Shown here: one piece after another, positions 26,366-42,273 of the stretch
Position numbering within the stretch: position 1 is the stretch's first letter
Layout of the letters: each line of letters starts with the position of its first letter
DNA from: Bacillota bacterium
Lineage (GTDB): Bacteria > Bacillota > Dethiobacteria > Dethiobacterales > Dethiobacteraceae
NCBI GenBank assembly: GCA_012521405.1
Contig: JAAYMK010000076.1
Coordinates: forward strand, 1 to 44,988
Length of the DNA: 44,988 bases
Direction: 5' to 3'
Program-made: the position numbers and the translations under genes
The notes under the pieces: generated by a model
Database searches by the model: none
What the model saw: only the letters and a program-made list of their open reading frames with translations
What the model was told of the DNA's origin: nothing

Positions 26366-27121
26366 ATGCAGGAAATCTTAGTAAAAGGAAAAACGCTCCC
26401 GGAAGCTTATCATCAATCACTCCAGGAGCTTTATACAAACGGCATAATTACCGCCTGCCCCGACTACAAACAAAAACAAAAGGAATGCAGTATGACAATT
26501 TTTGTGGCAGAACCTTTGGCAGAACCAATGATTAGTAAACTTTTTATCGGTGGCTTTGAGGAATTGGAACAGTACCGGCAGGAAATTCTTTACGGTATAC
26601 TGGACTTTTTAATCGGGCATGGTTGGGATTATACTTATCACGATCGCATCGCCAAGCAACTGCCTTTTATCTATTATGAGCTGCAAAGAAACCCATACAG
26701 CCGCAGGGCAGTCATTGATGTGAGAGACTTTGCTGCTGATACTAAAGAGGGCAATACCTCCCCGGCTTGCCTCCAACATATCCAATATTTTATTCGTGAT
26801 CAGAAACTGCATTGTAAAGTACTAATGCGCAGCAACGATGCCCCCGAGGCAGCCTTTATGAACATGTTTGCTTTCATTATGCTCCAAGAAAAGGTGGCAA
26901 ATAAACTTGGTTGCCAAATGGGTTCATACACCCACAGGGCAAATAGTTATCATTGCTATGAAAAAGATTTTCAATTGCTGGAGAATTATGTTTACAAAAT
27001 TAAAACTTGCAGTCTTGAAGAGCTTACCTACCCTTACGAAGGCTACTTTAAAGAACTGATGGAAGAAGCAAGGCCGAAAATTGCCCGGAAAGTGGAGGCC
27101 TTAAAACAAAAAAGAAAATAA
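26366..27121 (+). CDS. Thymidylate-synthase-like protein (divergent ThyA fold)
   Basis: A 251-residue protein that I assign to the thymidylate synthase/nucleotide hydroxymethylase fold. The landmarks align with E. coli ThyA by spacing: C135 (E. coli C146), R155-S156-x-D158 (R166-S167-x-D169) exactly 20 residues later, N166 (N177) 11 after the Arg, and H196-x-Y198 (H207-x-Y209) at +41 and +43. The phosphate-binding SRR at 112-114 matches R126/R127. Asn rather than Asp at 166 favours a uracil nucleotide over cytosine. The usual small domain between the N-terminal helix and the core is shortened and the C-terminus is charged instead of the ThyA tail, so folate binding is doubtful. Start ATG 26366 follows GGAGG. 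It ends three bases before the convergent macrodomain gene. Confidence 0.85.
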   Translation: MQEILVKGKTLPEAYHQSLQELYTNGIITACPDYKQKQKECSMTIFVAEPLAEPMISKLFIGGFEELEQYRQEILYGILDFLIGHGWDYTYHDRIAKQLPFIYYELQRNPYSRRAVIDVRDFAADTKEGNTSPACLQHIQYFIRDQKLHCKVLMRSNDAPEAAFMNMFAFIMLQEKVANKLGCQMGSYTHRANSYHCYEKDFQLLENYVYKIKTCSLEELTYPYEGYFKELMEEARPKIARKVEALKQKRK

Positions 27122-27124
27122 ACT

Positions 27125-27916
27125 TTATGTCAACAAACTACGATAAATCATTTCGTCTAGATCCGTAAAAACATTAAAAACAACACGTTTAATTCTGGTG
27201 TCTTGTTCCAGAAATTTTTTGACGCGGCTGACAGCAATTTCAGCCGCTTTATCTTTAGGAAAACGAAAAACACCGGTGGAGATACAGCAAAAGGCAATAC
27301 TTTGGCAACCTTTTTCCGCCGCCAACTGCAGGCAACTATCGTAACAGGAAGCCAACAAATCGCAATCTCGTTGAGTCAGCTCATGGTCAATAATGGGGCC
27401 TACCGTATGGAGTATATACTTGGCAGGCAGATTAAAGGCAGGTGTAATTTTAGCCCGGCCGGTAGGCTCCTCATGACCTTGCTTGACCATTAACTCATGA
27501 CAGTACAGTCTTAATTGAATGCCACTATATGTGTGAATACAGTTATCAATACAATCATGGCACGGGATCCAACAACCTTCCAATTGGCTGTTGGCGGCAT
27601 TAACGATGGCATCAATTTTCAGGGTGGTAATATCGCCTCTCCAGATTACCAGACGGGGATCGGCAGCCGTTGCTGCCAGCGTATTTGCATCCACAATCCC
27701 CCGCTCGCTAAGCAGTTCCTGCAGGAACTCATCTTGCACTTTCAGGAATTCTTCACTGATGGGCATACTGGGCCGCACATTCATTAAAGCACGCAACAAC
27801 CGCCATTGCTGTTGCGGATCTGCAGGGATTTTTATCTCTTGATAACGCGGGTTTTCTTTCAGCAATTCCTGGATTAAATAAAGTCTTCTTTCATCCTGTG
27901 TCAGCATGATCCTCAT
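27125..27916 (-). CDS. Zinc-type macrodomain protein ADP-ribosyl hydrolase (SirTM-linked)
   Basis: A macrodomain protein of 263 residues: an N-terminal helical extension of about 85 residues and a MacroD-like core with RGDITTLKIDAIVNAANS (93-110), GRAKITPAFNLPAKYILHTVGP and ISTGVFRFP. Inserted after NAANS is the Cys/His-rich GCWIPCHDCIDNCIH (114-128; C115, C119, H120, C122), the signature of zinc-dependent macrodomains encoded beside class M sirtuins, which remove ADP-ribose placed by SirTM. The gene overlaps the sirtuin stop codon (ATGA), so the two are co-translated. A second ATG nine bases on (27907) is an alternative start with better ribosome-site spacing. Family placement is secure; the target protein here is unknown. 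Confidence 0.93.
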   Translation of the reverse strand: MRIMLTQDERRLYLIQELLKENPRYQEIKIPADPQQQWRLLRALMNVRPSMPISEEFLKVQDEFLQELLSERGIVDANTLAATAADPRLVIWRGDITTLKIDAIVNAANSQLEGCWIPCHDCIDNCIHTYSGIQLRLYCHELMVKQGHEEPTGRAKITPAFNLPAKYILHTVGPIIDHELTQRDCDLLASCYDSCLQLAAEKGCQSIAFCCISTGVFRFPKDKAAEIAVSRVKKFLEQDTRIKRVVFNVFTDLDEMIYRSLLT

Positions 27917-28818
27917 TCCTTAATTTTTTGATAAAGCGCTTCTATAACATGGGCTGCATCGTACGGCATCTCCGTTGCCGCCGCCTTTAACTTTAACTCT
28001 TGTGGCACCATGGGATAGCCACCATGTCCTGGCCATTCTTTATATTCCGTATTCACCCGGAATAAATGGGCGTCATGATGGTAATATGCCAGGCGCTCAA
28101 AAGGCCAGCGAATAACCACGGGAGTATTAAATCCTACCCCGATTTCAAGAATACATAATTTTTTACCTACAGTGCTTTCCACAAAATCAACATAACGCTG
28201 TCTTTCTGCTTTATATCTCTCAAAGGCCCGAAAGGCAATGTCAAGGGGTGCACCACAGTAAGGACAGTAAGGAATGGCGCTTTCATCGGAAATCATAAAT
28301 GTTTCCGGATCAATTAAAGGCAGCAGCTTATCTATATAAGGTTTCACTTCCCATGTTTCCCTTGTGCAGCGTGCCGTACAGCGCAGCCTGTCATAACTGC
28401 CTTGCGCCTCAAAGACCCGCTCCATGGGAAAACCTGTACGCATAAATTGCCGGTCGCAATTGGAGGTGATAACAAAGAAATCTTTTCCTTGCACAATTTT
28501 TAGCAGCTTTTTATAAAGCTCTGCCGGCGGAAACACATAGCGTACAAAATGAATATGCCGCAGATTATAAGCCCATTCTCTGGCTTGGGGCCAGGGTTCA
28601 TGTTGGAAAAGCTCATAAGGGTATCTGTATCCCCTGGCCGCCATCTCCGGCTGAAATTTTTTAAACAATTCCTCATCTAAATAACTAAGGCCCGCGGCCG
28701 CCGAGAGCCCAGCCCCGGCACCGATTAAAATTTTATCGGCCGTATTAAGCCACGCATGCAGTTTCTCGATTTTTTCCGTAAATTCTCGCTGCTCCTCAAG
28801 TTTAGGCGTATTTTTCAT
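27913..28818 (-). CDS. Class M sirtuin, NAD-dependent protein ADP-ribosyltransferase (SirTM), copy 1
   Basis: A 301-residue sirtuin-fold enzyme. GAGAGLSAAAGLSYLD (33-48) is the NAD-binding GAGxS motif; TSNCDRQF (118-125) carries the catalytic Asn and EAQGSYDRL (137-145) has Gln where deacetylase sirtuins have the catalytic His, the change typical of SirTM, which transfers ADP-ribose instead of deacylating. The structural zinc Cys are C147, C151, C185 and C188. In studied systems SirTM modifies lipoylated GcvH-L and an adjacent Zn-macrodomain reverses it. The ATG at 28818 was chosen because GGGAGG lies five bases ahead. It follows a YjjG-like gene by 35 bases and overlaps the macrodomain gene. 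No gcvH-L or lplA2 is in the window. Confidence 0.93.
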   Translation of the reverse strand: MKNTPKLEEQREFTEKIEKLHAWLNTADKILIGAGAGLSAAAGLSYLDEELFKKFQPEMAARGYRYPYELFQHEPWPQAREWAYNLRHIHFVRYVFPPAELYKKLLKIVQGKDFFVITSNCDRQFMRTGFPMERVFEAQGSYDRLRCTARCTRETWEVKPYIDKLLPLIDPETFMISDESAIPYCPYCGAPLDIAFRAFERYKAERQRYVDFVESTVGKKLCILEIGVGFNTPVVIRWPFERLAYYHHDAHLFRVNTEYKEWPGHGGYPMVPQELKLKAAATEMPYDAAHVIEALYQKIKE

Positions 28819-28853
28819 CTGCTCCTCCCACAAAAAAATTTTTATATCATAAA

Positions 28854-29534
28854 CTACAATATAGCCTGCAATTCTTCCAGCCGGCGAATCTCATACTTGG
28901 GTTGCAAACCGCTATCATTGCTTTGCCCCCGGGGATTATACCAACAGGTATCAATACCAAAATTATGTCCCCCTTGCATATCGGAAGTAAGGGAGTCACC
29001 GACCATCAATGCTTTTTCTTTATTTGTATAGGCAATTTTTTTGAAGGTATAGGCAAAAATTTTTGGGTTTGGCTTACTGCAGCCGGCTTCTTCCGAAGTA
29101 ACCATAGCATAGATAAATTTTTTTAAAGGAGAATTTTGCAGCCTTTTCTGTTGAACTTCCGTAATCCCGTTTGTTACGATGACCAGCCGGTATTTTGCAG
29201 ACAAGTACCAGCAGACTTCTTCTGCACCACGAAGAATAAAGCCTGCCTCGCCTAAAAAATCCAAATAAACTTTGCTAAAATGCTCCAAATCTATTTTTCG
29301 TTTTCTGCCGGCAAAAAGCCGTGCAAATCTCACGGTGCGCAAGCTTAAATTGTCAATTTTACCCTGTTCATAATCCAACCAAATTTGCTCATTAATCTCA
29401 CGATACTTTTTTAGTTCCTCCAGGTGAAAAGGGATTTGAAAATATTTGTACGTTGCTTCTAAGGCATACGCTTCCGCTTTATGATAATCAAATAATGTAC
29501 CGTCGGCATCCAGTAAAATTATTTCATACTTCAC
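28854..29534 (-). CDS. yjjG: HAD hydrolase, YjjG-type pyrimidine nucleotidase
   Basis: A 226-residue haloacid-dehalogenase-like phosphatase. Motif I is DADGTLFD (9-16; nucleophile D9, acid D11), motif II VTNG (about 119), motif III lysine in GCSKPNPKIF and motif IV VGDSLTSDMQGG, where D-x5-D completes the metal site. The cap and the sequence LDADGTLFDYHKAEAYAL match the YjjG/YfnB group, which dephosphorylates pyrimidine nucleoside monophosphates including damaged or non-canonical ones. The start is a GTG at 29534 with GGAGG six bases away. It is the first gene of a predicted operon with SirTM and the macrodomain, behind an extended -10 promoter. Substrate is inferred from family. Confidence 0.88.
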   Translation of the reverse strand: MKYEIILLDADGTLFDYHKAEAYALEATYKYFQIPFHLEELKKYREINEQIWLDYEQGKIDNLSLRTVRFARLFAGRKRKIDLEHFSKVYLDFLGEAGFILRGAEEVCWYLSAKYRLVIVTNGITEVQQKRLQNSPLKKFIYAMVTSEEAGCSKPNPKIFAYTFKKIAYTNKEKALMVGDSLTSDMQGGHNFGIDTCWYNPRGQSNDSGLQPKYEIRRLEELQAIL

Positions 29535-29582
29535 CTTTAACCTCCAAGCTTAAAATTATCTCATTTGCTAGCATTCAGCCAC

Positions 29583-29611
29583 ATTATACCATTAAGCTGC
29601 CTTGCCATAAA
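29583..29611 (-). promoter_or_regulatory. Extended -10 promoter of the yjjG-SirTM-macrodomain operon
   Basis: On the minus strand TGGTATAAT (29583-29591) is a perfect extended -10. The hexamer 17 bases upstream is weak (TTTATG, 29606-29611), as is common with extended -10 promoters. It lies about 50 bases before the GTG at 29534. Confidence 0.55.
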
Positions 29612-32797: not shown

Positions 32798-32896
32798 CCG
32801 CTAAACTTTAGGTTTAATTAATCTGACCATATATTCTCTTTGCTTGTATTTTTCTCCTTCCCGAAAAGGATGAAGCAAAGTTTAGGAGGCAATTAT

Positions 32897-33562
32897 ATGC
32901 AACTAATTAAAGAAATAGTGGCCCTGTTTGAGGCCAACAGAAATTACGCAAATGCTGAACCCATGGCTAAATATATGAAAAATCAATTTCCGTTTCTCGG
33001 CATAAAAACTCCTGTCAGGAAAGCTTTAATGCAAAAGTTTTTTCGCACAAGCGGCATCTTACAAAGTCCTTTTCAAGAAGCATTAGTTGTAGCTTTATGG
33101 GAAAAGGAAGAACGGGAATACCAGTATGCAGCCCTGGATTATCTTAAAAGGTCGCTACCTAAACTAACAAAAAATGACTTGCCCCTCATGCAAAAACTAA
33201 TCACCACTAAATCCTGGTGGGATACCGTTGACACCCTTGCCCAGCATCCTGTGGGTACAATTGCATTGAAATACCCGGAAGTTATTCCGGAAACTATTTT
33301 TGCTTGGGCGCAAAGCGAAAACATGTGGCTGCGCCGGACTGCCATTCTCTTTCAGTTAAAATATAAGGCAAAAACGGATGAAAAGCTTTTATATGAAATT
33401 ATTAAACAAAATGCCCACAGCAAAGAGTTTTTTCTCCAAAAAGCAATCGGCTGGGCGCTGCGTGAATACTCGAAAACTAATCCTGACTCGGTGAAAAAAT
33501 TTATCATGGAAAATGAACTGCCCAAGCTTAGCCTGCGGGAAGGAAGTAAATATCTCCCTTAA
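32897..33562 (+). CDS. alkD: DNA alkylation repair glycosylase, AlkD-like
   Basis: A HEAT-like-repeat DNA glycosylase of 221 residues that removes alkylated bases such as 3- and 7-methylpurines. The repeats are helical throughout; the conserved LGIKTPVRKAL near the N-terminus, TKSWWDTVD in the middle (with the catalytic-position Asp) and WLRRTAILFQL ... KEFFLQKAIGWALREYSKTNP near the end are signature segments of this family. The start is ATG 32897, preceded by AGGAGG with seven bases between; the frame is open 19 codons further upstream without a ribosome site. It ends near the shared terminator with niaR. Identification is good. Confidence 0.93.
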   Translation: MQLIKEIVALFEANRNYANAEPMAKYMKNQFPFLGIKTPVRKALMQKFFRTSGILQSPFQEALVVALWEKEEREYQYAALDYLKRSLPKLTKNDLPLMQKLITTKSWWDTVDTLAQHPVGTIALKYPEVIPETIFAWAQSENMWLRRTAILFQLKYKAKTDEKLLYEIIKQNAHSKEFFLQKAIGWALREYSKTNPDSVKKFIMENELPKLSLREGSKYLP

Positions 33563-34190: not shown

Positions 34191-36125
34191 TTATCTGCCC
34201 AGGTTATTAGCCACCGCATATGCTGCTTGCGTAGCGGCAAGGATATTTTTTGGCGTTACACAATCGCCGATTTGATAAAATTCAGGTGCACATTGAGCCA
34301 GCGCCAACGCTTCTTCACGTAGCGGTTCTTGTCCCACAGCATAAATCACCGTTTCGGCGGGAAGTTCCCAGCTGCCGGAAGGACCTTTTACCCAAACGGC
34401 CGTCTCGGTAATTTCAGCGGCAGTGGTGGAAGTATAAATTTTTATGCCAAGTTTGGCAATTTGGTCCCTGAGTGCCAAGGTATGCATACTAAACTTATCA
34501 ACAGACAGTTCAGGCAGCTTTTCCAGAATGGTTACAGCCCGCCCCTTTTGTGCCAAAAAGATCCCCAATTCAACACCCACCAGGCCGCCACCTAAAATAA
34601 CGGCCGTCTTGCCGACTTTTTCCGGCTCTAAAAAGGCGTCTACCGCTCCAAAAACATTTGGCAAGTTAATACCTTTTACCTGCGGTACAAGAGGACGGGC
34701 ACCGAGGGCGGCAATAATCACATCCGGAGCCAGCGTTTTGGCCATTTGCGGAGTGACTTCCGCCTGCAGCCGAATTTCTACCCCTGCCTTAACAAGCATG
34801 TGCGCTTGCAGATCCAAGTATGCTTTTACTTTTGCCTTAAAGGGTACTTTTTCCTCACAGCGTAAAACACCGCCAAGTTTTTCACTTTTCTCACACAAAA
34901 TAACCTGATGACCGCGCTCCGCAGCCGTCAGTGCCGCCTGCATACCGGCTACCCCGCCGCCCACCACCAGGACACGCTTTATTTTTCTCACAAAAGGAAG
35001 ATAGCCCGTTTCTTTTTCATAACCAATGATCGGATTAATGGCGCAATAGAATATGCGGTGCCTGCCCACACTGCCAAAGCAAGTGGAACAGCGCAAGCAT
35101 TTTCTAATTTCATCATCCCGGCCACTGCGTGCTTTTAGCGGCAAATCGGGATCGGCCAAGGTCTGGCGGGCCATGGCAATGAAATCGGCTTGGCCGGAAG
35201 CAATGATTTCTTCCATCTGCGCCGGGTCGGTGTAGGCACCTACAGTTGCCACATAAGATTTAACGTGTTGCTTAATGGCGGCGGCATATTGCAAATTGAC
35301 ACCATCCGGAAGAAACATACTTGGATGAGTGATAATGGTCGCCTCCGGTGCTTCATGGTGGCCGGCGGAAACATGGATGATATCCACTTTACCATCAATG
35401 GCTTTGGCCAAAGCAATACCTTCATCCAAATCGTATCCTTCCGGATAAAGCTCTGCACCGCTCAAGCGGAATTCAATAGGAAAGTTTTTACCCACAGCAC
35501 GGCGCACACTGTCAATGACGGCTAGGGGAAAACGGATACGGTTTTCGAAGCTTCCGCCCCATTTATCTTTACGGGTATTAAGCTTGGGTGAAAAAAACTG
35601 TGAAATTAACCAACCGTGACCGCCATGAATTGTCACCATCCCGAAACCGCATTGTTTGGCAAAAGCGGCCGCTTTCCCAAAGGCCTCGATAATATACTCA
35701 ATCATTTCCTCCGGCATTTCTTTGACTTCTCCATATTGATTAATGGTAGCCACAGGACCGTAAAGCTCTGCACCGGCAGCATAAGATGCTTGTGCATACA
35801 TGCCGGCGTGGGACAATTCAGCGGCAGCAACGGCACCATGGCGTGATATCGCATTAGCTACTTTGGAAAGTCCGGGCAGCATTTTCGGATTGTCCATGGG
35901 CAGCAACCAATCGTAATGACGCCCGTTTTTCCAGTCCACAATACAGTCGCCTATACAGACGGAAGCAAACCCACCTCGAGCTTTAATTTCAAAATAAGCA
36001 ACCATATCATCATTGGGAAATAAATCGGGCCCAAGATTATAGTAGCCTTGAGGTGACGATAACAATCTGTTTCTAAATAATGTCCCGGCAACTTCCAGCG
36101 GGGCAAAAAGATGTGGATATTTCAT
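34191..36125 (-). CDS. NADH:flavin oxidoreductase with FeS and FAD domains (2-enoate/2,4-dienoyl-CoA reductase family)
   Basis: A 644-residue three-domain flavoenzyme. The N-terminal half is an old-yellow-enzyme TIM barrel binding FMN (LFAPLEVAGTLFRNRLLSSPQGYYN; HGGHGWLISQFFSPKLNTRKDKWGGSFENR). It is followed by a 4Fe-4S site, C-x2-C-x2-C-x11-C, in CLRCSTCFGSVGRHRIFYC. A C-terminal FAD/NAD part has VLVVGGGVAGMQAALTAAERG and a second GG motif AVILGGGLVGVELG. This is the FadH/2-enoate reductase plan: NADH reduces an activated C=C bond. The HGG motif provides the substrate-binding His in OYE. The ATG at 36125 has AAAGGAG ahead; the frame is open further without a ribosome site. It is the last gene of a likely three-gene unit. 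The substrate is unknown. Confidence 0.93.
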   Translation of the reverse strand: MKYPHLFAPLEVAGTLFRNRLLSSPQGYYNLGPDLFPNDDMVAYFEIKARGGFASVCIGDCIVDWKNGRHYDWLLPMDNPKMLPGLSKVANAISRHGAVAAAELSHAGMYAQASYAAGAELYGPVATINQYGEVKEMPEEMIEYIIEAFGKAAAFAKQCGFGMVTIHGGHGWLISQFFSPKLNTRKDKWGGSFENRIRFPLAVIDSVRRAVGKNFPIEFRLSGAELYPEGYDLDEGIALAKAIDGKVDIIHVSAGHHEAPEATIITHPSMFLPDGVNLQYAAAIKQHVKSYVATVGAYTDPAQMEEIIASGQADFIAMARQTLADPDLPLKARSGRDDEIRKCLRCSTCFGSVGRHRIFYCAINPIIGYEKETGYLPFVRKIKRVLVVGGGVAGMQAALTAAERGHQVILCEKSEKLGGVLRCEEKVPFKAKVKAYLDLQAHMLVKAGVEIRLQAEVTPQMAKTLAPDVIIAALGARPLVPQVKGINLPNVFGAVDAFLEPEKVGKTAVILGGGLVGVELGIFLAQKGRAVTILEKLPELSVDKFSMHTLALRDQIAKLGIKIYTSTTAAEITETAVWVKGPSGSWELPAETVIYAVGQEPLREEALALAQCAPEFYQIGDCVTPKNILAATQAAYAVANNLGR

Positions 36126-36144
36126 TTTTTTAAATCTCCTTTCT

Positions 36145-37134
36145 TTAATCTTTAACGGTTGCAAGCAAAGCTTGGTTTTGCCGCACAATTGCCTCTTCCA
36201 ATTCTTCCACGGAGTTTGTCAGGAGTTCAAAGACCAAATATTGCGGTTGGACAGCCGCCATCACTTTCTTTATTTCCGGGCTGCAAAAAGGTTGATGCGC
36301 ATCTATCTTTTGAATATGCGGCATTATCAAGCCCACTTTCTCTTGCAAAGATTTTGCTTGTTTTAACTTTTCAATTTGTACCGAATGATCAGCCGCCAAA
36401 TAAGCACCCGGCAAGGTACTGTTTAAATGGATGGCTTTGATCTCTTTTTTCAGTTCATGTAGAGCCGCTAAACTTGCCAAAATATAGCTGCAAGCTTCTG
36501 CTTCATTTTTTAGGGATGGATTTGTGCAAATTAAATGGCTTATATCCAGCACAATACCTTTGCGAGGATACGAAATACTGGCAAGAAACTTTTTTGTTGC
36601 CTTGTAATCTAATAGTCGCATGCCCGGCCACCACAAATTTTCCAGCAATAACATAATTCCGGCATCGTCATCTCCAAAAACTTCATTGATAAGTTCGGCA
36701 CAAGCAGCCATCACATCTTCATCTGTATAGGTAAATTTCCAGGTATACGTATGTAATAATTCCACATGGGCCACATGAAAAACCATGTATTTTGCACCGA
36801 TACTTTTTGCCAACGCAAACTCGCGGCGGTAATAATCTATAAGAACCTGCCTGTCGGTGCCGCCGTAGTAATTTATAATTTCTTCTTCACTGCCAAATTG
36901 ATGTAAAAGTGCCGGCAAATCGCCTCTCCAAAGATCCAGCCACATGGGCTTATAACCCAAGTGGATTCCTGCCACAAGCTCCCGGGGTACAGTACTGTTG
37001 TCATATCCCTGATAAGTAAAAAGTTCTACGCCGTGGAAACCATGTTTTTTTAAAAACAGCCTCAACCGGTCCCAATCATGGTCAAGCAAATCCAGCAATC
37101 CGTGTACCGTGGAAACATGAAGTAATTTTTTCAT
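36145..37134 (-). CDS. Xylose-isomerase-like TIM-barrel protein (AP endonuclease family 2)
   Basis: A 329-residue protein of the sugar isomerase/AP endonuclease 2 barrel. Strand-end residues fit the metal site of the family: HGVELFTY near residue 35, YMVFHVAHVELLH (His pair), MLLLENLWW (Glu-Asn), KGIVLDISHLICT (Asp-His), KAIHLNST and the final YLVFELL (Glu). The Asp-x2-His and the terminal Glu are the usual divalent-metal ligands. It lies between the DUF89 gene (15 bases upstream) and the flavoprotein gene (19 bases downstream), on the same strand, and so is probably co-transcribed. Members include sugar epimerases, isomerases and inosose enzymes; the substrate cannot be named. Confidence 0.85.
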   Translation of the reverse strand: MKKLLHVSTVHGLLDLLDHDWDRLRLFLKKHGFHGVELFTYQGYDNSTVPRELVAGIHLGYKPMWLDLWRGDLPALLHQFGSEEEIINYYGGTDRQVLIDYYRREFALAKSIGAKYMVFHVAHVELLHTYTWKFTYTDEDVMAACAELINEVFGDDDAGIMLLLENLWWPGMRLLDYKATKKFLASISYPRKGIVLDISHLICTNPSLKNEAEACSYILASLAALHELKKEIKAIHLNSTLPGAYLAADHSVQIEKLKQAKSLQEKVGLIMPHIQKIDAHQPFCSPEIKKVMAAVQPQYLVFELLTNSVEELEEAIVRQNQALLATVKD

Positions 37135-37149
37135 TTTTTTCTCCTTTAT

Positions 37150-38022
37150 TTAGGAAGTTTTGATTTTATTACGCATGAAAACAGTTTCGCCAAATTTTAC
37201 ACCGGCACATTTTGCCACCAGGTCACATTTGGCTCTCAACACAAAAAATGTTTTCTTCCCGGCAAATTCATTTCCTTCCAGGGACTCGAAATTAGCTTGT
37301 CCTTTGCCGATTACCAGATCTGCCTCGGCAAACTTTTGCAGGAACTCTTGAGAACACCTTGTGAGTATTGTTCCTAAAAATCCGGCGCCGTTAGTGATCA
37401 CTTCGGCAATTTCCGTCATACCCGTTGCCACCGCATCTTCCATGGTAACATCGTTAAGAATAGGCGCTTCTTTTACCACATAAGTTACCTGTTTTTGCCG
37501 GGTTTTTAACGCCTGCACCAGCAACTTGTCAAAGACAATTTCCCCACTGTTATCACCTAAAATCATAATCTTTTGTGCTTGTTGCAGTAAGCGTTTAAAC
37601 TCATCGTAATCACATAAAGCAAATTCTTTTTCCGTAATCTCCGCCAGTGCCAGATCAAGATCAAAATCCGGCATAATCCCCATATCAATGATATTACCTG
37701 CCACCGATACTTTAAAAGCCGCTAGCAGCGGATCTTCCGCCGTCTCTACCAGCTTTTTTAGTTGAGGAAATAATTTTAGCGCCATTTCATTGGATTCCTG
37801 TTTGGCATGTTTAAAGGGATCTTCCATACCCATGGCTTTATAAGCTTCCAGCAGTACCAGGGTAGAATTTTCTGCCGGAGAAGCATCTATATCCAGTTGA
37901 GGAATAATGCGCATGGCAGCCTGAAAAACATCATTGGCCTTTTCTGCTGGATATTTTCCTATTTTGATGGCGGATAGTACTTGCTGCAAATAGCAGGGCA
38001 CGCATTCCATTTTGACCTTCAT
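37150..38022 (-). CDS. DUF89 family metal-dependent phosphatase (ARMT1-like)
   Basis: A 290-residue protein of the DUF89 (damage-control phosphatase) family, microbial subgroup. The N-terminus has MECVPCYLQQVL with paired Cys (C7, C10), a mark of this subgroup. The active site is in the second half: LGDNSGEIVFDKLL (Asp-Asn metal ligands), ITNGAGFLGT, IGKGQANFESLEG and FVLRAKCDLVAKC. The metal (Co, Ni, Mn or Mg in relatives) lies between the DN and the E/D of these motifs. Family members remove phosphate from reactive or useless phosphometabolites such as sugar phosphates; the partner sugar-isomerase-like gene fits this idea. The ATG at 38022 has AAGGAGAGG ahead. The specific substrate is unknown. 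Confidence 0.88.
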   Translation of the reverse strand: MKVKMECVPCYLQQVLSAIKIGKYPAEKANDVFQAAMRIIPQLDIDASPAENSTLVLLEAYKAMGMEDPFKHAKQESNEMALKLFPQLKKLVETAEDPLLAAFKVSVAGNIIDMGIMPDFDLDLALAEITEKEFALCDYDEFKRLLQQAQKIMILGDNSGEIVFDKLLVQALKTRQKQVTYVVKEAPILNDVTMEDAVATGMTEIAEVITNGAGFLGTILTRCSQEFLQKFAEADLVIGKGQANFESLEGNEFAGKKTFFVLRAKCDLVAKCAGVKFGETVFMRNKIKTS

Positions 38023-41142: not shown

Positions 41143-42069
41143 CTATAGTTTCGCCTGGTTCTCATCCTTTACCACCATATGCTCCGCCAACCACTCAATG
41201 ACATCCTTGGCGTCATAAGGCAGAGGTGTTGCTTTATCTTTCTCCTTTAGTTCTTCCGGCACCATGGGAAAACCACCATGACCGGGCACTTCTTTATATT
41301 CATAATTGACACGGAATAAATGGGCCTGATTGTGGTAATAAGTCAAACGTTCAAAGGGCCAACGGATGACAGCGGGGGTATTAAAACCCACACCTATTTC
41401 CAATATACACAACTTTCTTCCAATGGTGCTTTCCACCCAATCAAGATAACGATTTTTTTCCTCTTCATATTCTTCATAATCACGTACTGCGGCAAAAAGC
41501 GGTGCCCCACAATAAGGGCAAGCGGGTATGGCACTTTCATCTTTAATCATAAAAGTTTCCGGATCGATTAAAGGAAGCAGTTTATCAATAAAAGGCTTGA
41601 TATGCCAAGTTTCCTTTGTACAGCTTCTCACACATTTTAACCTGTCATAACTGCCTTGGGCCTCAAAAACACGTGTCATAGGAAAACCGGTCCGGAAAAA
41701 CTGGCGATCACAATTGGAGGTAATGACAAAAAAGTCTTTATCTTGAACCACTTGGAGTAATTTTTTATAAAGTTCAGAGGGCGGAAATTGATAGCGGACA
41801 AAATGAATATGTTTTATATTGTAAGCCCATTCCCGCGCCGCCGGCCAGTTTTCTTTAAAGCGGTCAAAAAGTTCGTACGGGTGGCGATACCCCATAGCAG
41901 CCATTTCCGGCTGAAATTGTTTAAAAAGCTCTTCATCCAAATAGCTTAAACCTGCTGCCGCCGTTAAACCGGCACCGGCACCGATAAGAATTTTATCCGC
42001 CGTTTCCAGCCACGCTTTTAATTTTTGCATGGAACGGATGAAGGCACTATCTGCCTGCACATTTTGCAT
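41143..42069 (-). CDS. Class M sirtuin (SirTM), copy 2, without macrodomain partner
   Basis: A 308-residue paralogue of the SirTM at 27913-28818, similar along the whole length by eye. GAGAGLTAAAGLSYLD (30-45), TSNCDRQFF (117-125, catalytic Asn) and EAQGSYDRL (136-144, Gln in place of the deacetylase His) mark it as a class M ADP-ribosyltransferase; zinc Cys are C146, C150, C184 and C187. All catalytic residues of copy 1 are kept, so it is probably active. It stands alone: convergent with a MoaF-like gene and divergent from an aldehyde dehydrogenase. The start is uncertain: ATG 42069 aligns with copy 1 but its best ribosome site is about 13 bases away, and ATG 42105 has only a weak one. Confidence 0.92.
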   Translation of the reverse strand: MQNVQADSAFIRSMQKLKAWLETADKILIGAGAGLTAAAGLSYLDEELFKQFQPEMAAMGYRHPYELFDRFKENWPAAREWAYNIKHIHFVRYQFPPSELYKKLLQVVQDKDFFVITSNCDRQFFRTGFPMTRVFEAQGSYDRLKCVRSCTKETWHIKPFIDKLLPLIDPETFMIKDESAIPACPYCGAPLFAAVRDYEEYEEEKNRYLDWVESTIGRKLCILEIGVGFNTPAVIRWPFERLTYYHNQAHLFRVNYEYKEVPGHGGFPMVPEELKEKDKATPLPYDAKDVIEWLAEHMVVKDENQAKL

Positions 42070-42273
42070 CCTTAGACCACATCCCTCTTCCAAGTTTACT
42101 CTCATTGCCAACAATTATATCATAAGCACGACTTATTGTATTTATTTGTTGCTTCTTATATACTATATCCAGATAAAAAGATAAGCAAAAAGTTCAGAAT
42201 CTTATGAAGGATTTATTGTTTTTATCTTTTGCTATGCCCGGGATTGTATAAACAAAAGAAAGGAGAAAGATTG

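Follow-up and report, generated by a model that had tools for sequence, protein, structure and literature searches.

The window analyzed here, a stretch of 44,988 nucleotides, contains a lone SirTM/Zn-Macro pair together with an extra SirTM gene, a locus of a kind that is already known. We consider it likely that these genes specify a stand-alone switch for reversible mono-ADP-ribosylation of a non-lipoyl protein target, with two writers, SirTM1 and SirTM2, and one eraser, Zn-Macro. In this switch SirTM1 and its unlinked paralog SirTM2 would use NAD+ to attach one ADP-ribose to an acidic residue in some protein of the cell other than lipoylated GcvH, and the single Zn-Macro would strip off this tag, releasing ADP-ribose. 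The enzymatic function and the bond chemistry are predicted from characterized relatives: the macrodomains of lone pairs, like those of SirTM-macrodomain fusions, do not demodify GcvH-L, but those of lone pairs act on Glu/Asp-ADP-ribose (PMC11490716). The service of two writers by one eraser, a role in redox or electrophile stress and co-transcription of the pair with a preceding nucleotidase gene, yjjG, are further features that we infer.

Three minus-strand open reading frames were recovered where the earlier note had placed them: yjjG (28854-29534), SirTM1 (27913-28818) and Zn-Macro (27125-27916), the latter two joined by the ATGA overlap that it had described. The top phmmer matches of SirTM1 are two solved class M (macrodomain-linked) sirtuins, 5a3a and 8rsn, while generic SIR2 models score it weakly; we accordingly annotate it as a class M sirtuin and predicted protein ADP-ribosyltransferase. 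Zn-Macro is a predicted zinc-dependent protein-ADP-ribose hydrolase, with a score of 365 bits against a cut-off of 272 for the NCBIfam model NF003163, and its best PDB matches, 8rsi, 5kiv and 8rsl, are all solved Zn-Macros. The active sites are intact, as had been noted from the sequence: the SirTM has N125, Q144 and R202 along with four zinc-binding cysteines, and the macrodomain has C115, H120 and C122. The asparagine, glutamine and arginine are invariant across all 26 aligned SirTM sequences and correspond in the alignment to Asn118, Gln137 and Arg192 of the Streptococcus pyogenes SirTM, which have been shown to matter (PMC4518038). Both SirTMs of the window thus display the class M signature, namely QG replacing the catalytic HG, together with the Asn/Gln/Arg set, and SirTM1 additionally shows the linkage to a zinc macrodomain through the overlapping genes. 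In Zn-Macro the glycine-rich catalytic loop is replaced by the zinc motif GCWIPCHDC, with its C115, H120 and C122 invariant. While the gene identities and the intact active sites are established, the activity of the pair is a prediction from sequence; identity of the window's clade to the characterized bacterial enzymes is about 32% for SirTM and about 50% for Zn-Macro. Comparison with a sister species (G083) yields dN/dS values of 0.06 for SirTM1, 0.06-0.10 for Zn-Macro and 0.09 for yjjG; these genes and SirTM2 are all under purifying selection.

The predicted unit begins with yjjG, which has a GTG start and encodes a HAD-family noncanonical pyrimidine 5'-nucleotidase (TIGR02254, 232 bits against a curated cut-off of 159.9). 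Upstream of it lies a perfect extended -10 element, TGGTATAAT, read in the sequence at 29583-29591 on the minus strand. This promoter had been pointed out before, and we find it to be invariant in the sister species, where it forms a fully conserved run despite the divergence of the surrounding upstream region. The previous assignment of the SirTM1 start to a TTG at 28833 needs revision: the more likely start is the ATG at 28818, since it follows a GGAGG ribosome-binding site (28824-28828, minus strand) in the yjjG-SirTM1 gap, and the segment GGAGGAGCAGATG is kept in the sister species. This gap measures 35 nucleotides here and about 71 in the sister species, and no terminator was called within the 35 nucleotides. 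Given the conserved promoter, the short gap and the lack of a called terminator, co-transcription of yjjG, SirTM1 and Zn-Macro is likely.

At the other end, a gene for a divergent thymidylate-synthase-like protein (26366-27121) is convergent with the Zn-Macro gene, with 3 bases between them; the protein matches PF00303, has a match to TIGR03283 below the cut-off and has a P-A-C-x-Q region. Elsewhere in the window there is a DNA-alkylation-repair gene (32840-33562) and, on the minus strand at 34191-38022, a row of genes for an Oxidored_FMN/Pyr_redox two-domain enzyme, a xylose-isomerase-like protein and an ARMT1-like damage-control phosphatase. A link to DNA-alkylation repair was rejected, as such neighbors occur only here and in one further locus (L080), in a different arrangement.

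The earlier inventory of the window was correct for the SirTM1/Zn-Macro pair but overlooked a second class M sirtuin, SirTM2 (41143-42114, minus strand; probable ATG start at 42069), which has no adjacent macrodomain and is flanked by a MoaF-like gene on one side and an aldehyde dehydrogenase gene on the other. It emerged as the second match when the host's own genome was searched with SirTM1, to which it is about 75-76% identical, and alignment shows all its catalytic and zinc-binding residues to be intact. Orthologs are present in G083 and in a further genome, G072; dN/dS against the former is about 0.08, similar to the values for SirTM1, Zn-Macro and YjjG, and SirTM2 is therefore under purifying selection. 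It too is preceded by an extended -10 element, TGATATAAT in the window and TGTTATAAT in G083, and there is a conserved block of about 35 nucleotides ahead of it. In the tree SirTM2 groups with the G083 and G072 copies with a support of 0.996, and this group lies near the first of the two SirTMs that stand in tandem, followed by a single Zn-Macro, in a Sporobacter metagenome-assembled genome (MAG; locus L076). SirTM2, itself unlinked to a macrodomain, groups with macrodomain-linked relatives. Its tree position and the tandem SirTM-SirTM-Macro arrangement together suggest that the writer was duplicated and that a single eraser serves both copies.

The host appears to be free of lipoylation. The earlier note had recorded the absence of the carrier genes from the 45 kb; we find them missing from the whole genome as well (2.1 Mb in 165 contigs, 97% complete), for which the absence calls are based on family searches. 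These detected neither of the genes that mark the extended operon, gcvH-L and lplA2, and no standard GcvH-L/LplA2 cluster elsewhere: there are no GCV_H matches, no LplA/LipB matches and no LipA above the cut-off in the genome. Only two Biotin_lipoyl domains exceed the cut-off, both with the EAMKM biotin motif, and that search found no lipoyl-type domain. By the same family searches GcvH and LplA are absent from G083 (96% complete) and G072, while a third related genome, G073, is without LplA and matches GcvH only below the cut-off. Since GcvH and the lipoylation enzymes are absent from the genome, the pair is not expected to act on lipoyl-GcvH-L here. The suggestion of a target other than GcvH-L is thereby strongly supported, all the more so as lone-pair macrodomains are inactive on GcvH-L in vitro (PMC11490716).

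That the pair nonetheless serves a lipoyl carrier, with the lipoylation genes missed by an incomplete assembly, might be argued from the fragmentation into 165 contigs and the 97% completeness; we hold this to be highly improbable, as GcvH, LplA/LipB and LipA are missing together, no lipoyl-type domain was found, and the relatives G083 and G072 likewise lack GcvH and LplA, with G073 lacking LplA and matching GcvH below the cut-off. Somewhat less improbable, although still unlikely, is the modification of a biotinyl carrier domain. Such a domain shares the barrel-sandwich fold of lipoyl-GcvH and is its nearest equivalent in the genome, which has the two EAMKM-bearing carriers; GcvH-L, a barrel-sandwich hybrid, receives its modification close to the swinging arm (PMC4518038). 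However, no biotin gene recurs among the SirTM neighbors in our survey of relatives.

This survey covered the 80 nearest SirTM loci, 72 of which have a Zn-Macro nearby. None of the 80 has a GcvH or LplA neighbor, as judged with a custom profile that was built from canonical GcvH and used without a GcvH-L control; a Lactiplantibacillus plasmid locus chosen as the positive control proved not to be an extended operon. The statement that gcvH-L and lplA2 normally accompany such pairs is hence untrue of the family as a whole, as is also evident from the literature (PMC4518038; PMC11490716), and the missing carrier genes are no surprise but the common state. Some apparent exceptions to the pairing of separate genes were discarded: the SirTM-Macro fusions seen at L082 and L083, both from Acidobacteria, have their domains in different frames and are artifacts of ORF calling, and the seemingly unpaired SirTM of L080 has a macrodomain masked by an opposite ORF. 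Contig C56 of G072 and contig C30 of G016, an assembly from a different family (loci L058 and L069), share one run of genes, oppositely oriented and terminating at Zn-Macro; probably one of these assemblies contains a cross-binned contig.

The SirTM of the window belongs to a clade of Bacillota MAGs, Sporobacter termitidis and Acidobacteria MAGs, with about 70-90% identity within it and about 30-42% to the remaining SirTMs. Within this clade the neighbors vary from genome to genome, and the target is therefore probably not encoded at the SirTM locus. The more distant lone pairs have recurrent neighbors: PNPOx-like flavin proteins at 21 loci, regulators of the HxlR type at 20, nitroreductases at 16, radical SAM proteins at 10 and NmrA-like NAD(P)-binding proteins at 6. 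Such neighbors would fit a response to redox or electrophile stress, in which the switch may have its role, but they are not conserved within the window's own clade. A general link to URO-D/corrinoid genes was rejected, these being found only at L075 and L084.

Of 398 genomes sampled from the phylum, 19 have a Zn-Macro and 379 do not; a lipoate ligase is present in 6 of the former as against 295 of the latter, a depletion with p = 4e-5 by genomes and 2e-4 by genera, uncorrected for phylogeny. The only strong GcvH matches come from these six genomes, on other contigs or far off on the chromosome. Weak matches in G162, G235, G073, G237 and G402 (E ~1e-4), with weak partial scores, were read as biotin-type domains and set aside. 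In three of the 19 (G233, G412 and G443) no SirTM was found near Zn-Macro within the fetched stretch. Tentatively, and with slightly more doubt than belief, we entertain a broader proposal, namely that in most of its carriers in the phylum the pair would be a lipoylation-independent ADP-ribosylation switch retained preferentially where the genome has no lipoate ligase, and that in the present clade two writers with different targets would share one eraser.

YjjG had been proposed to clean up an ADP-ribose or nucleotide by-product. That it takes part in the ADP-ribosylation cycle as a third component, removing phosphate from a nucleotide that arises as a by-product or serves as a substrate, would fit with the 35-nucleotide gap without a terminator, the common conserved promoter and the linkage kept in the sister species, and the thymidylate-synthase-like gene also flanks the pair. 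Clean-up genes can indeed occur in such loci: an Enterococcus casseliflavus plasmid (L215:3217-5888) has consecutive genes for Zn-Macro, SirTM, PNPOx and a NUDIX hydrolase, the last of which could dispose of the ADP-ribose that is set free. However, a six-frame search of the 80 loci found no YjjG near SirTM outside this genus, and a close YjjG is present in only three of the 98 genomes of the class (G000, G083 and G072). In G072 it is on a different contig from SirTM, adjoining an acetyltransferase-like gene, and in G073 a URO-D-like gene takes its place ahead of the pair. We therefore regard the clean-up role as quite unlikely; YjjG is probably just a neighbor, which in this genus would share the transcript by proximity and stand outside the pathway. 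SIR2 and macrodomains are also found in defense and DarTG-type systems, which might hint at an anti-phage or toxin-antitoxin-like module; no PADLOC model matched, a single distant relative was found among 2.9 million viral contigs, and the synteny is conserved between species of the genus, so that we give such a module very little credence.

We thus favor the stand-alone switch, in which two writers would be paired with a single eraser. Lone SirTM/Zn-Macro operons are known from several families, whereas the extended operon has been reported in Lactobacillales and Staphylococcaceae (PMC4518038). The window resembles the lone operons of Enterococcus faecalis and Treponema pedis in its SirTM adjoining Zn-Macro, the QG motif, the zinc ligands and the absence of GcvH-L and LplA (PMC4518038; PMC11490716); it differs in that its SirTM belongs to a separate clade, a second SirTM occurs elsewhere in the genome and the genome appears to lack lipoylation altogether. 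Its writer and eraser are homologous to those of the extended operon of Staphylococcus aureus and S. pyogenes and have identical catalytic residues, but its unit has no GcvH-L or LplA2, and its Oxidored_FMN protein (34191-36188) is a larger two-domain enzyme outside the unit. The fungal Mfs1 fusion has both homologous domains, but they are separate genes here with SirTM first, whereas the solved fusion, 8rsn, has the macrodomain first.

The substrate of the lone pairs is a stated open question (PMC11490716). A host unable to lipoylate excludes the only known substrate class, such that any protein labeled by SirTM in it would be a lone-pair target, and lipoylation-free hosts therefore permit a clean test for that target. 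If the negative association with lipoate ligase survives correction for phylogeny, the link to lipoyl-GcvH-L would not be the core function but a specialization of Lactobacillales and Staphylococcaceae.
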